Shown here: piece after piece, positions 24,886-42,200 of the stretch | Numbering within the stretch: the stretch's first letter is position 1 | How the letters are laid out: each line of letters begins with the position of its first letter | Assembly (NCBI RefSeq): GCF_900104535.1 | Contig: NZ_LT629710.1 | Coordinates: forward strand, 248,001 to 312,000 | Source: Nakamurella panacisegetis | GTDB lineage: Bacteria > Actinomycetota > Actinomycetes > Mycobacteriales > Nakamurellaceae | DNA length: 64,000 nt | Direction: 5' to 3' | Notes under the pieces: model-generated | Databases searched by the model: none | What the model was told of the DNA's origin: nothing | The model's input: the letters and a program-made list of their open reading frames with translations, nothing else | Position numbers and translations under genes: made by a program

Positions 24886-24961
24886 TGGTAGCCCCGAAGG
24901 GATTCGAACCCTCGCTACCGCCGTGAGAGGGCGGCGTCCTAGGCCGCTAGACGACGGGGCC
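24886..24961 (-). tRNA. tRNA-Glu, anticodon CTC
   Basis: The minus strand folds as a complete tRNA: seven-pair acceptor stem GGCCCCG/CGGGGCT (first pair G-U), D arm GTCTAGCGGCCTAGGAC, anticodon loop CTCTCAC with CTC at 34-36, and T loop TTCGAAT. The 3' CCA is encoded (complement of 24886-24888). It reads GAG codons. It lies close to gltX, as in mycobacteria. Confidence 0.96.
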
Positions 24962-25057
24962 CTAGGTGACACTCGGTCGCACTGCTCGTGACCGAAGAGA
25001 ATCATACCTGACCACGGGGGCCGGATCGGCCACTCGCGATCGCGTACTCGGATGTCG

Positions 25058-25129
25058 CTGGGGTACTAGGACTCGAACCTAGAATGAGGGAATCAGAATC
25101 CCTAGTGTTGCCAATTACACCATACCCCA
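25058..25129 (-). tRNA. tRNA-Gln, anticodon CTG
   Basis: 72 bases on the minus strand with acceptor stem TGGGGTA/TACCCCA, anticodon loop TTCTGAT carrying CTG, and T loop TTCGAGT. CCA is not encoded. In an organism using GltX plus GatCAB (both in this window), this tRNA is first charged with Glu and then amidated. Confidence 0.96.
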
Positions 25130-36601: not shown

Positions 36602-36908
36602 GCTTTGTTCATCTCCGTCTTGCTGTCCTCGGCCGTGAGTCGATCCCCTGGCCGCGTTCGGTGGGTTCGGGCAGGCGGCGAGATGCCGCCCATCGGCCCG
36701 TCCGGTTCGGGTGCATCGGTGCGCCCGGGGGGCCATCGTATCGAGGTCGACCGGGCCGGTCGGGACGGGTCCGGCCGTCAGGGCCCGGCGCCGTCGCCCC
36801 GGCACCGCGATTGGTAAAGATCTGTGGGCGAATTCATCGTTCGCCGATGCGGGAGCTCACGCGGGCCCTACAGTGATCTCGAATTCTCCGCCACCGAAAG
36901 GAACGACA
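36602..36908. other. intergenic region between serA and a membrane-protein gene
   Basis: 307 bases between divergent genes. It holds a short inverted repeat GGCGGC-GAGAT-GCCGCC at 36674-36690 in the probable serA leader, and the AAAGGAA ribosome site of the plus-strand gene at 36897-36903. A TACAGT hexamer near 36869 is a possible -10 for the plus strand, without a clear -35. No RNA gene or leader peptide was recognised. Confidence 0.4.
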
Positions 36909-37613
36909 GTGACGACTCCCCCGCCCTACGGCTCTGTGCCGAGCCAGCCCCAGGGTTACCCCCCGCCGGGTCAGCCGGCCCCGGGCGCCTACCCGAACAC
37001 GGGCGCGACCCCGGCGCCGGGGTACGGGCAGCCGCAGTACGGTCAGCAGCCGCCGGCCTACGGTCAGCAGCCGGGGTACGCGCAGCCGGCCTACCCCGCC
37101 GCGCCGGGCTTCGCCCCCGCCGGCTACGGAGCGCCGATGGCCGCCCGGCGACCGGGCATGGTGACCGCGGCCGCCGTTCTCGCCTTCATCTGGGGCGCCT
37201 TCGCCATCATCGGTGGCCTGATCATCATGGCCGCCAGCTCCATCGTCTCCTCGGCCTCCGCCTACTGCAACTCCCTGACCACCACGGACGCCACCACCGT
37301 GGCCGACTGCAACACCGTCAGTGGCTACAGCGGAACCTTCAAGGCGATCGCCGGTGCGCTCGCGGTCGTGGCCATCCTGCTGATCTGGGGCGGCGTGGTT
37401 GCTCTGACCGGGAAGAACGCACAGATCCTGGTGATCGGCGCGGCGGTCTTCATCCTGCTGCAGATCGTCGAACTGATCATCAGCGCCACGTCCAGCGGCA
37501 GCTTCTACGGCACCGGCATCATCGGCATCGTCGCCCCCGTGCTGATGCTGATCTTCATGCTCAACCCGGCCTCCAAGGCCTGGTTCAGGTCCAAGGGCGC
37601 CAAGACGTTCTAG
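36909..37613 (+). CDS. proline/tyrosine-rich four-helix membrane protein
   Basis: A 234-residue protein. The first ~75 residues are rich in Pro, Gly, Gln and Tyr (PPPYGSVPSQPQGYPPPG, repeated GQQP units) and should be a disordered cytoplasmic tail. Four hydrophobic helices follow (about 83-105, 135-160, 168-190, 198-215), with two cysteines in a Thr-rich loop between helices 1 and 2. The layout is common in uncharacterised actinobacterial envelope proteins (DUF4064/DUF4190-like). GTG at 36909 with AAAGGAA upstream. It is convergent with ilvC. No function can be assigned. Confidence 0.8.
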   Translation: MTTPPPYGSVPSQPQGYPPPGQPAPGAYPNTGATPAPGYGQPQYGQQPPAYGQQPGYAQPAYPAAPGFAPAGYGAPMAARRPGMVTAAAVLAFIWGAFAIIGGLIIMAASSIVSSASAYCNSLTTTDATTVADCNTVSGYSGTFKAIAGALAVVAILLIWGGVVALTGKNAQILVIGAAVFILLQIVELIISATSSGSFYGTGIIGIVAPVLMLIFMLNPASKAWFRSKGAKTF

Positions 37614-37653: not shown

Positions 37654-37704
37654 GACGCCGAACGGCCCGCCTCCCAGCGTCTGGGAGGCGGGCCGTTCGG
37701 CGTC
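37654..37704. terminator. 24-base-pair bidirectional terminator between membrane-protein gene and ilvC
   Basis: A perfect 24-base-pair inverted repeat with a three-base CGT loop; the arms start GACGCCGAACGG and end at CTCCCAG. It is placed exactly between the convergent stops at 37613 and 37712. No T tract follows on either side. It is the longest perfect hairpin I noticed in the window. Confidence 0.8.
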
Positions 37705-37711
37705 AGGACCG

Positions 37712-38926
<1,215 letters not shown>

Positions 38927-38940
38927 AAGTGGTGGGCGCC

Positions 38941-39456
38941 CTAGTCTGCGCGCTGGCGTTCGGAAGTGATGGACTTGGCCCCTCGCCCCAGCGCGACCAT
39001 GCCGGACTGCACCAGCTCACGGACGCCGAACGGCTCGAGCATCCGGACCAGGGCCTCCAGCTTGTCGGTGGTCCCGGCGGCCTCGATCGTCATCGAGTCG
39101 GGGGTGACGTCGATGACGTGGGCGCGGAACATGTCGACGATGGTGACGACCTGGGCCCGCACCGCCGAATCGGCCCGCAGCTTGATCAGCAGCAATTCGC
39201 GGTGCACCGAGGCCGACGCCGACAGCTCGACGATCTTGAGCACGTTGATCAGCTTGTTGAGCTGCTTGGTGACCTGCTCCAGCGGGAGACCCTCGACCGC
39301 GACGACGATCGTCATCCGCGAGACGTCCGGGTTCTCGGTCGGGCCGACGGCCAGGGAGTGGATGTTGAACTGCCGGCGGGAGAAGAGCGACGAAACCCGA
39401 GCCAGGACACCGGGTTTGTTCTCGACCAGCACCGAAAGGGTGTGTGTACTCATCAT
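38941..39456 (-). CDS. ilvN: acetolactate synthase small (regulatory) subunit
   Basis: IlvN binds valine and other branched-chain amino acids and regulates IlvB. The 171 residues contain the ACT domain THTLSVLVENKPGVLARVSSLF, RRQFNIHSLAVGPTE, QLNKLINVLKIVEL and the C-terminal ALS-like domain DSMTIEAAGTTDKLEALVRML. Two adjacent ATG codons (39456 and 39453) could start it; the GAGGA ribosome site is very close to either. It begins 81 bases after ilvB and is almost certainly in the same message, controlled by the attenuator upstream of ilvB. Confidence 0.97.
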   Translation of the reverse strand: MMSTHTLSVLVENKPGVLARVSSLFSRRQFNIHSLAVGPTENPDVSRMTIVVAVEGLPLEQVTKQLNKLINVLKIVELSASASVHRELLLIKLRADSAVRAQVVTIVDMFRAHVIDVTPDSMTIEAAGTTDKLEALVRMLEPFGVRELVQSGMVALGRGAKSITSERQRAD

Positions 39457-39537: not shown

Positions 39538-41355
39538 TCATTCCTCGTCGAACAGCGGCCGGATGCCGCGGGCGGCCATGATGTGGTCGTTGCCGGTGCC
39601 GGCGGCCACCATCGGCCACACCTGGGCGTCCGGACCGACGGTGAAGTCGACCACGACCGGGCGGTCGTTGATGGCCATCGCAGCTTCGATGGTCCGATCG
39701 ACGTCCTCCTTGGACTCGCACCGCAGCCCGACGCAGCCGTAGGCCTCGGCCAGCATCTTGAAGTCCGGGATCCGCAACTTGTGGGTGCCCAGGTCGGTCT
39801 GGCTGTACCGCTCGCCGTAGAAGAGCGTCTGCCACTGCCGGACCATGCCCAGGTTGCCGTTGTTGATGATGGCGACCTTGATCGGGATGCCCTCGATGGC
39901 GCAGGTGGCCAGCTCCTGGTTGGTCATCTGGAAGCAACCGTCACCGTCGATGGCCCACACCACCTTGTCGGGAGCGCCCATCTTGGCGCCCATGGCGGCC
40001 GGAACGGCATAACCCATGGTGCCCAGGCCGCCGGAATTGAGCCAGGTGTAGGGCTTCTCGTAGGAGATGAACTGCGCCGCCCACATCTGGTGCTGCCCGA
40101 CCCCGGCCGCGAAGATGGTGTCCGGACCGCTGATCTTGCCCAGTCGTTCGATCACGTACTGGGGCGACAGGCTGCCGTCGGCCGGCCAGTCGTAGCCGAG
40201 CGGGAACGTCTCGCGGATCTCGTCGAGTTCGGCCCACCATGCGGTCAGATCGGCCACCACACCGTTGGTCTGCTCGATCGACACGGCGGCGATCAGCTCG
40301 GAGATGACCTCCTTGGCATCCCCGACGATCGGGACGTCGGCGTGCCGATTCTTCCCGATCTCGGCCGGGTCGATGTCGGCGTGGATCACCTTGGCGCCCT
40401 GCGCGAACGAGGACAGCTGACCGGTGACCCGGTCGTCGAACCGGGCCCCGAGGGCCACGATCAGGTCGGACCGCTGCATGGCGGCGACCGCGGCCACGGT
40501 GCCGTGCATGCCGGGCATGCCGAGGTGCTGGATGTGCGAGTCAGGGAAGGCGCCACGCGCCATCAGCGTGGTGACGACCGGGATGCCGGTCAGCTCGGCC
40601 AGCACCTTGAGCTGCTCGGTGGCGTGCGCCTTGAGCACCCCGCCGCCGACGTAGTAGACCGGGCGGCGGGCGGCGGCGATCAGCTTGGCCGCCGCGTTGA
40701 TCTGGCCCGAGTGTGGCTTGGACGCCGGGCGGTACCCCGGCAGGTGCACCTCGGTCGGCCACTTGAAGACGGTCTCGGCCTGCAGGATGTCCTTGGGGAT
40801 GTCGACCAGGACCGGTCCGGGGCGGCCGGACGAGGCCAGGTAGAAGGCCTGGGCGATGACGGTCGGGATCTCGGCCGCGTCGGTGACCATGAAGTTGTGC
40901 TTCGTGATCGGCATGGTGATGCCGCAGATGTCGGCCTCCTGGAAACCATCGGTGCCGATCAGTGACCGGGCCACCTGACCGGTGATGGCGACCAGCGGCA
41001 CCGAGTCCATGTGCGCGTCGGCCAGCGGGGTGACCAGGTTGGTGGCGCCGGGGCCGGAGGTCGCGATGCAGACCCCGACCTTGCCCGAGGCCTGCGCGTA
41101 CCCGGTGGCGGCGTGCCCGGCTCCCTGCTCGTGACGGACCAGGATGTGACGCACCCGCTTCGAGTCGAACAGCGGGTCGTAGACGGGCAGGACCGCCCCG
41201 CCGGGGATGCCGAAGACGATGTCCGCGCCCGCTTCCTCGAGGCTGCGCACGACCGACTTGGCGCCGGTCACGTGCTCCACGGGAGGCTGCGGTCGGGCGG
41301 CGGCCGGCGAGGCGGTCGGCGACGGCCGGCTGGGGGCCGTCGGTGTCTGGGTCAT
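39538..41355 (-). CDS. ilvB: acetolactate synthase large subunit
   Basis: IlvB is the thiamine-diphosphate enzyme making acetolactate and acetohydroxybutyrate, the first shared step of branched-chain synthesis. The 605 residues show a ~35-residue variable start, the catalytic Glu in [17 protein letters not shown], the [15 protein letters not shown] segment, and the ThDP-binding GDG in [20 protein letters not shown] chose ATG at 41355, with GAAGAGG eight bases upstream. A leader peptide, pause hairpin and T-tailed terminator lie between the promoter and this start. It matches Rv3003c in context. Confidence 0.98.
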
Positions 41356-41476
41356 GGGGAAGACCTCTTCGATCTCATCGGGCCTGGAGAACGGCCACAA
41401 AGGGTGGGTGTGTCTTCATCGTCCGCTGATTGGCCGGCCTCGCGGCCCGCCCGTCGCCCTGGTGTGGGCAATAAAA

Positions 41477-41513
41477 AACCCCTCGTCCACCGGTTAGCGG
41501 GGACCAAGGGGTT
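41477..41513 (-). terminator. transcription attenuator upstream of ilvB
   Basis: On the minus strand AACCCCT pairs with AGGGGTT, with a further GGTCC/GGAC stem inside and a ~12-base loop. The descending arm runs directly into six T residues (41473-41478), a typical intrinsic terminator. It lies 34 bases beyond the leader-peptide stop and ~120 bases before ilvB, so it can cut off ilvBN(C) transcription when branched-chain aminoacyl-tRNAs are plentiful. Confidence 0.85.
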
Positions 41514-41547
41514 GCGCGTCGGGTTCGGGGTGACCGAACGGACGCGC
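41514..41547 (-). promoter_or_regulatory. hairpin between leader peptide and attenuator
   Basis: GCGCGTC pairs with GACGCGC, with an inner stem GTTCGG/CCGAAC around TCACC. It begins at the leader-peptide stop codon and ends at the terminator's first arm. In classical attenuators this position holds the pause hairpin or a part of the antiterminator switch. The alternative pairing that would break the terminator was not worked out. Confidence 0.6.
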
Positions 41548-41573
41548 TAGCGGAGTACGAGAATCTGAGACAC
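41547..41573 (-). CDS. ilvB leader peptide (8 codons, Ile-Leu-Val-Leu)
   Basis: GTG TCT CAG ATT CTC GTA CTC CGC TAG encodes fMet-Ser-Gln-Ile-Leu-Val-Leu-Arg. Four consecutive codons for isoleucine, leucine, valine and leucine make a sensor of all three branched-chain aminoacyl-tRNAs. An ILVL-containing leader before ilvB is also what I recall for Streptomyces, and C. glutamicum ilvBNC is controlled by attenuation. The GTG lies seven bases after the -10 element, so the peptide is probably translated from a leaderless 5' end. Confidence 0.85.
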   Translation of the reverse strand: MSQILVLR

Positions 41574-41580
41574 GCTCCCG

Positions 41581-41610
41581 ACCTTACGGGCCGATCTTCG
41601 ACACTGTCAA
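41581..41610 (-). promoter_or_regulatory. ilvB promoter
   Basis: Minus-strand TTGACA (41605-41610, perfect -35), an 18-base spacer, and TAAGGT (41581-41586, -10). Transcription should start about seven bases on, at or within one or two bases of the leader-peptide GTG at 41573. It is the best sigma70-type promoter match in the window. Confidence 0.8.
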
Positions 41611-41675: not shown

Positions 41676-42200
41676 GTGACCAGCCCCTCCGTCAACCGCA
41701 AGGCCGTCTTCCGGCTGCCCGGTGTCTCGTTCCTGATCCCGTTCCTGTTCTTCATCGCGGTGACTCCCCTGGCCAATGCGGGAACCCACCACATCCTGCT
41801 GGTGCTGTACCTGTTCCCGTTGATCGGTCTGGTGTACATCCTCATCACCCGGACCGTGGCCGACGCCGTGCAGCTCCGCACGGTCGGCCTGCTCGGGGCC
41901 CGCACCATCGCGTGGTCGGAGCTGGACGGCCTGGAGTTCCACGGGCCGAGGTGGGCGATCGCCGTGGCCCTTGACGGGCGCCGGCTTCGCCTGCCGATGG
42001 TGCGCCCACGGGACCTACCCCGGCTGGCCGCCGTGTCCGGCGGTCGGCTGCTGCTCGGCCCGGACGCCCCCATGGCCGAGGACCTGGCCCCGGTTCTGCC
42101 GACCGGCCCGGCGACCGCGGACGGCACCGGCGCACCGCCCGACAAGCGCCTCACCGATCCGACATCGACCCCGGCCGGGAGCGCCACCGCCGACGAGTAA
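41676..42200 (+). CDS. PH-domain membrane protein (Cfp6-like)
   Basis: A 174-residue protein with two adjacent membrane helices (about residues 16-33 and 39-59, FLIPFLFFIAVTPLANAG and ILLVLYLFPLIGLVYILIT) and then a small beta-rich PH-like domain (VQLRTVGLLGARTIAWSELDGLEFHG, ALDGRRLRLPMVRPRDLPRL). The tail is Pro/Thr/Ala-rich. It matches M. tuberculosis Rv3004 (Cfp6) in layout and in position divergent from ilvB. GTG at 41676 gives the natural start; no clear ribosome site is visible. Function unknown. It is followed by ilvD after 60 bases. Confidence 0.85.
   Translation: MTSPSVNRKAVFRLPGVSFLIPFLFFIAVTPLANAGTHHILLVLYLFPLIGLVYILITRTVADAVQLRTVGLLGARTIAWSELDGLEFHGPRWAIAVALDGRRLRLPMVRPRDLPRLAAVSGGRLLLGPDAPMAEDLAPVLPTGPATADGTGAPPDKRLTDPTSTPAGSATADE

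Follow-up and report, generated by a model that had tools for sequence, protein, structure and literature searches.

The ilvBNC operon of Nakamurella panacisegetis is, with high probability, preceded by an ilvL attenuator that is leaderless, codon-sensed, and terminator-controlled. The leaderless ilv attenuator is well kept and already known in kind in actinobacteria (Streptomyces lividans and Corynebacterium glutamicum). The less expected feature is that the rare control codon GUA, a first hairpin (H1), and the terminator hairpin (T) hold a tight ruler while the leader stop codon wanders. The relevant features of the window, the whole 64,000-nt stretch of DNA that was analyzed, are as follows.

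41605..41610, minus strand: −35 box TTGACA (sequence; exact in 17 of 17 genus genomes)
41581..41586, minus strand: −10 box TAAGGT of the TANNNT class, separated from the −35 box by an 18-nt spacer (sequence)
41547..41573, minus strand: ilvL leader ORF, GTG to TAG, peptide MSQILVLR (sequence, spacing test, no Shine–Dalgarno enrichment)
41556..41558, minus strand: GUA control codon (rare Val codon in the window CDS)
41514..41547, minus strand: hairpin H1, outer stem GCGCGUC/GACGCGC (folding, genus covariation)
41477..41513, minus strand: terminator hairpin T, abutting H1 without a gap (folding)
41473..41478, minus strand: U6 tract of the terminator, followed by ATTG (sequence)
39538..41355, minus strand: ilvB, acetolactate synthase large subunit, the regulated gene (NCBIfam NF005860, 1120.7 bits; TIGR00118)
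38941..39456, minus strand: ilvN, acetolactate synthase small subunit (NCBIfam NF008864; TIGR00119)
37712..38737, minus strand: ilvC, ketol-acid reductoisomerase (NCBIfam NF004017; TIGR00465)
41676-42200, plus strand: 174-aa ORF, divergent from ilvB and adjoining ilvD (without an NCBIfam match)

The leader ORF (GTG TCT CAG ATT CTC GTA CTC CGC TAG; eight residues) is a short reading frame with a run of Ile, Leu, and Val codons directly before ilvB, and a U-tract intrinsic terminator sits between the two. The preliminary description had proposed a TTGACA-18-TAAGGT-7-GTG arrangement of promoter and leader, a hairpin at the peptide stop, and a six-T terminator before ilvB. Re-reading of the sequence reproduced this arrangement to the base, with 7 nt between the −10 box and the GTG on the minus strand. 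In the folded RNA, H1 begins at the G of the stop codon TAG, 11 nt downstream of the first GUA base, and hairpin T follows with its U6 at 41478–41473. The two abutting hairpins in the 107-nt RNA counted from the GTG showed −44.1 kcal/mol (z −3.96), and none of 200 shuffled sequences was equally stable. A scan of both strands of the 64 kb for the combined site (at least five of six positions of TTGACA, a 16–19-nt spacer, TANNNT, 6–8 nt, and RTG) returned two sites, of which the ilvB-leader site alone opens an ORF of <30 codons. A stock scan called neither a promoter nor a terminator at the leader; no promoter was called because TAAGGT fits the Escherichia coli −10 box at three of six positions and the limit of the tool is four, and actinobacterial −10 boxes are given as TANNNT in a study of S. 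lividans (PMC8079986). Rfam covariance models at their gathering cut-offs identified no T-box, riboswitch, or other cis-regulator at the leader site. At a lax threshold, the leader matched the Rhizobiales sRNA model Atu_C7 at 22.8 bits (E 0.0016), short of its cut-off of 45, and the match was not credible.

In the surroundings of the leader, GAAGAGG precedes the ilvB start at 41355, and ilvD is divergent from ilvB, past a small ORF. A near-perfect long inverted repeat (37654-37704) lies directly after the ilvC stop codon, with a convergent ORF (36711-37613, plus strand) beyond it, and is perhaps a terminator shared both ways. Elsewhere in the window, a cobalamin riboswitch aptamer (Rfam RF00174; 62641-62792, minus strand) scored 33.0 bits (cut-off 31.5), and a pair of adjacent tRNA genes for Glu (CTC) and Gln (CTG) was found at 24886-25129 (minus strand).

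Conservation of the leader was assessed in 223 ilvB upstream regions, comprising 17 genomes of the genus (the window included), 126 other genomes of the order, and 80 named actinobacterial loci. Seven of 150 order-level genomes had no ilvB match at E 1e-200; six of them were left out, and the genus genome among them (G003) was kept via a weaker split match. One genome whose ilvB match lay at a contig end (G091) and second ilvB-like copies were also left out, and two named loci with <200 nt of upstream DNA (L106 and L121) were counted as unanchored. Leaders were anchored on the T hairpin together with GTA having at least two Ile, Leu, or Val neighbors, a search that is blind to promoter and start codon; it replaced a first search that scored the −10 box and the ORF together, because the selection in the latter included the −10 box. 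Anchored leaders were found in 188 of the 223 regions (17/17 in the genus, 121/126 in the rest of the order, and 50/80 named loci), counts that ignore relatedness among the genomes, compared with 3/223 on the reverse strand and 1–3/223 in five sets of shuffled sequences. The 30 unanchored named loci were mostly from Microbacteriaceae, Arthrobacter, and other Micrococcales, and several of them still showed an ORF with a branched-chain run after NANNNT in the earlier search. Four leaders from the order (L044, L046, L142, and L157) form a divergent class with peptides such as MSSIRSLRVLT and a −10 box CAGGCT 7 nt before ATG. Directly after the U tract (41472-41469 in the window), 100 of the 187 leaders read GTTG, and a further 29 have ATTG or CTTG.

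The transcript is predicted from the −10 spacing to start on the G of the leader GTG, at 41573. We examined this spacing in 187 leaders, one of the 188 being too close to a sequence edge. TANNNT preceded an in-frame open ATG or GTG by 6, 7, and 8 nt in 18, 64, and 21 genomes, respectively; all other spacings from 0 to 30 nt gave 0–4, and neither of the other frames gave more than 3. The looser NANNNT peaked at the same three distances (70, 105, and 30) over an in-frame background of up to 33. Within the genus, exact TTGACA, TANNNT, and a distance of 6–7 nt to the start codon occurred in 17 of 17 genomes, the start having been picked using the promoter score. A count of 186 of 187 leaders with NANNNT 6–8 nt before the start was set aside as evidence because the start codons had been chosen with that score. 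Shine–Dalgarno-like words preceded 24 of 187 leaders, which corresponded to the background level (8–26 of 187 in six control windows). The window leader shows the layout of a leaderless mRNA, with a −10 box 6–8 nt before the start codon and without a Shine–Dalgarno site. Initiation by 70S ribosomes is generally inferred for leaderless mRNAs, and a spacing of one base between GGGAG and a start codon is too short for a normal ribosome site. The latter bears on the alternative that the transcript begins upstream of 41573 and that translation of the leader relies on a ribosome site: a GGGAG does lie one base ahead of the GTG, but it falls between the −10 box and the predicted +1, and both the unenriched Shine–Dalgarno-like words and the sharp peak of −10 spacings argue against such leadered translation, which we consider very improbable. 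On sequence and comparison together, the leaderless reading of the ilvB leader is very likely right.

Mapped relatives are consistent with the leaderless reading. According to the passages of the S. lividans study on RNA-seq and ilvL, the mean distance from the −10 box to the start site is 6.3 nt and the ilvL peptide MRTRILVLGKRVG is transcribed leaderless (PMC8079986); among the 50 anchored named loci, 9 have this same peptide as their leader. In C. glutamicum, the transcript start is placed one nt from the ilvL start codon in the passage concerned (PMC11857589). In the account of the Mycobacterium tuberculosis ilvB1 attenuator, the mapped start site lies 126 nt before the end of the U tract (PMC13236596), and in six mycobacterial loci, the U tract ended 113–137 nt after the leader start codon, which would fit a leaderless uORF there too. 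The claim that the leader peptide begins at the first base of the transcript is thus backed by the spacing peak, by the background level of Shine–Dalgarno-like words, and by these published relatives. The leaderless start of the ilvB attenuator, in which the preliminary description had seen the main interest, is already in print for S. lividans and C. glutamicum (passages of PMC8079986 and PMC11857589), as is the ilvBNC attenuation in actinobacteria that it had taken as known (C. glutamicum, M. tuberculosis, and S. lividans).

Next, we focused on the control codon and its distance to the hairpins. Of the 253 Val codons in six CDS of the window, one is GUA. In the alignment of the genus, GTA was invariant in 17 of 17 members, as were C13, T14, T20, and C21 on either side of it. 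GUA is also named as a regulatory codon in passages on M. tuberculosis (PMC13236596) and C. glutamicum (PMC11857589), and the sensitivity of attenuation to amino acid limitation is the subject of a theory paper (PMC1183508). At least two members of the order (L146 and L222) carry GTG or GTC in place of GTA, as judged by eye, and because the anchor required GTA, the conservation of GUA in the larger set is partly built in; GUA appears from these sequences to be strongly favored, not universal.

Distances were measured in 172 of 186 folded leaders (one further leader, L054, had been dropped for a poor leader call), namely those in which the last upstream helix starts 5–20 nt after GTA; the 14 leaders set aside by this filter mean that the spread of the GUA-to-H1 distance is trimmed. 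This distance was 10 or 11 nt in 127 and 13 or 14 nt in 31 of the 172 leaders, and in the genus, it was 11 nt in 15 of 17 and 10 nt in 2 of 17 members. H1 and T were separated by 0, 1, and 2 nt in 107, 54, and 11 of the 172 leaders, and by 0–2 nt in 181 of 186 without the GTA-distance filter. Other spans varied widely (standard deviations of 8.9 nt from start codon to GUA, 11 nt for the H1 span, and 9.7 nt from stop codon to H1, n = 172). In 15 of 17 genus members, the leader stop preceded H1 by 1–2 nt; it fell inside H1 in the other two (MSLILVLPERAG and MSQLLVLQRRVIARV) and in the Streptomyces locus L064, which has AAG where the window has TAG. Measured from the first base of the P site, the ribosome footprint extends about 15 nt downstream; with GUA in the A site, it would end on the first two bases of the window H1. 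No description of this ruler was found in the passages of open-licence PMC papers on leaderless attenuation and on stalled ribosomes and terminators. In four long leaders (L043, L041, L050, and L083), the last part of the control run was seen by eye to be able to base-pair with the RNA immediately downstream of the H1 5′ arm; the resulting small hairpin would be a competitor of H1.

The H1 outer stem was 99.2% paired over the 17 genus members, with changes on both sides at two of seven pairs. Both helices together had 7 both-side-change cells in the genus alignment, whereas shuffled alignments had a mean of 1.7 and slid controls had no more than 3. The count of further pair types in the genus alignment was no higher than in many shuffles (95/500), and for both-side-change pairs, one slid control version equaled the count of the genus alignment. 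An H1 covariation signal over the larger set was dropped because it looks like a one-nt shift of the H1 start, and the genus alignment was kept.

We then asked by folding whether the T 5′ arm is held by upstream RNA when the RNA is cut at the T loop, comparing a stalled ribosome with one at the stop codon; the test uses nested thermodynamic folding and assumed ribosome footprints. In E. coli leaders, which served as controls, occupancy of the arm was 0.64 stalled vs. 0.00 at the stop for thrL, 0.62 vs. 0.05 for trpL, and 0.46 vs. 0.01 for leuL, and the antiterminator appeared at 10 of 11, 2 of 2, and 4 of 4 stall codons, respectively. For E. coli ilvL, the stalled value ranged from 0.10 to 0.79 by stall codon vs. 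0.28 at the stop, and was clearly higher at 8 of 13 codons. The same test gave no antiterminator in the window, where occupancy was 0.03 stalled and 0.13 at the stop, and the means over 186 leaders were 0.12 stalled, 0.30 at the stop, and 0.38 without a ribosome. The stalled value exceeded the stop value by 0.1 in 12 of 186 leaders and the reverse held in 125, whereas a stalled value of at least 0.4 that also exceeded the stop value by 0.1 occurred in only 3 of 186. Sequestration of the T 5′ arm by an antiterminator on stalling, as in the classical trp type, was thus not found under thermodynamic folding with assumed footprints. When footprint and stall codon were varied in 50 of the 186 leaders, the stalled value exceeded the stop value by 0.1 in 1–15 leaders. 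With the longest footprint and the latest stall codon, the difference vanished (means of 0.31 stalled vs. 0.27 at the stop over the 50 leaders; 0.14 vs. 0.07 in the window).

In the full-length RNA, T of the window had a probability of 0.92 without a ribosome, with a stalled ribosome, and with a ribosome at the stop codon, and the means over 186 leaders were 0.92, 0.95 stalled, and 0.94 at the stop. T fell below 0.7 in some state in 15 of 186 leaders; in three mycobacterial-type leaders (L218, L061, and L062), T was stronger with a stalled ribosome than without one, contrary to what regulation requires. The E. coli controls also formed T in the full-length model (0.81–0.96), so that the full-length measure does not discriminate, whereas the cut-RNA measure does. 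Pairing of the H1 loop or the leader with the T 3′ arm was considered as another switch. Pairing of the H1 loop exceeded that in shuffles by a mean of 0.26 nt (sd 1.61; >1 nt in 38 of 172 leaders), with no excess in the window (6 vs. 6.3), and pairing of the leader exceeded it by 0.37 nt (sd 1.28; >1 nt in 54 of 172) and was larger in named loci (7.28 vs. 6.37). Both were rejected as a switch, the excess being too small to define one, though not nil.

In the proposed attenuator, transcription would start on the leader GTG, and ribosomes would enter the eight-codon leader without a Shine–Dalgarno site, as the spacing and the mapped relatives suggest. With ample charged branched-chain tRNAs, the ribosome would pass the Ile-Leu-Val-Leu run into the foot of H1 and leave, after which T would form and transcription would end near 41473. 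Under a shortage of Ile, Leu, or Val, the ribosome would halt within the run, the rare GUA being the most likely site; H1 would then fold ahead of it, and RNA polymerase may read into ilvB. The direction from stalling to read-through is taken from codon mutants: in the passages that report them, replacement of the three Val codons of the C. glutamicum leader by Ala (PMC11857589) and of the LVVI codons of M. tuberculosis by Ala (PMC13236596) abolished the response. Codon substitution in the Streptomyces coelicolor ilvB leader left regulation unaffected, which counts against this direction (Craster 1999, as told in a passage of PMC1262725).

The usual parts of classical trp-type attenuation (a leader with control codons, a pair of hairpins, and a U tract) are all in place, and an antiterminator model has been published for C. 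glutamicum and Corynebacterium ulcerans and drawn for M. tuberculosis. In the folding test, the longest footprint tried put the stalled value above the stop value by 0.1 in 11 of 50 and 15 of 50 leaders. The lower occupancy on stalling in the window and over the 186 leaders, obtained with a test that does detect the antiterminators of E. coli thrL, trpL, and leuL and, at 8 of 13 stall codons, that of ilvL, makes the trp-type mechanism doubtful here, and the near-background complementarity of the H1 loop to the T 3′ arm (the kind described for ilvB-II) points the same way. The leaderless layout and the branched-chain amino acid attenuation of the preliminary description were strongly supported by comparison and by mapped relatives; a classical switch was not visible in the folding test. 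The stability of T in the three modeled window states and the ineffective codon changes in S. coelicolor (passage of PMC1262725) would also agree with a constitutive T, H1 being a pause hairpin or RNA stabilizer and promoter strength, not the leader, setting ilvB. The rare GUA within a branched-chain run, its tight distance to H1, and the loss of response in leader-codon mutants of two other actinobacteria (passages of PMC11857589 and PMC13236596) render this distinctly improbable.

The geometry of the attenuator suggests another way in which stalling may act. H1 does not overlap T, and both GUA to H1 (mostly 10–11 nt) and H1 to T (0–2 nt) are tight, which together suggest ribosome parking: with H1 looped out, the leading edge of the stalled ribosome would stand at the foot of T, and the last base pairs of T would be hindered. 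A GUA-stalled ribosome would then block T from closing in the polymerase exit channel without a competing antiterminator, and might do so in many actinobacterial ilv operons, the position of the stop codon being unconstrained. On geometry alone, we rate this as unlikely, and because T formed in all three modeled states of the window, the parking step stays hypothetical.

The window leader can be set beside several described systems. In Streptomyces loci, the leader frame continues into H1 (..GKRVG), whereas the window has its TAG stop there. Morbach 2000 is said to be a further paper on C. glutamicum ilvL, and the polycysteine leaderless ORFs of mycobacteria, reportedly treated in Canestrari 2020 (cited in PMC13236596), are said to concern cysteine and a different downstream switch without this terminator type. 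These mycobacterial short ORFs are alike in that a leaderless leader ORF senses the amino acid of its operon (related work: PMC4633059). S. lividans ilvL (SLIV_10947, before ilvBHC) shares the Ile-Leu-Val-Leu run, the leaderless start by RNA-seq, the hairpins, the U-rich tract, and the operon, and differs in its peptide of 13 residues, compared with eight in the window, according to the passages on it (PMC8079986). C. glutamicum ilvL, as described in the passages concerned (PMC11857589), resembles the window in its near-leaderless start, branched-chain leader, terminator, and GUA and CUU control codons; it has 15 residues, and its antiterminator and terminator are reported to overlap, whereas H1 and T of the window share no nucleotides. 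The M. tuberculosis ilvB1 attenuator is alike in its LVVI uORF, regulatory GUA, intrinsic terminator, and short RNA in cells; an antiterminator is drawn for it, and its uORF is not termed leaderless in the passages on it (PMC13236596). The Corynebacterium ilvB-II motif likewise combines a uORF with two stem-loops, the second a terminator, but its antiterminator is described in the relevant section as the right shoulder of P2 with the loop of P1 (PMC10272879), a pairing that had a small mean excess here and none in the window.

These data point to leaderless ilv attenuation as the rule across the 17 genus genomes that were searched, and as widespread in the order, rather than an oddity of one species; they also indicate that its RNA geometry is kept within narrow limits. 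If parking were true, stalled ribosomes would have a further means of preventing intrinsic termination, which would help to explain the poor fit of published leader mutation data to the trp model.
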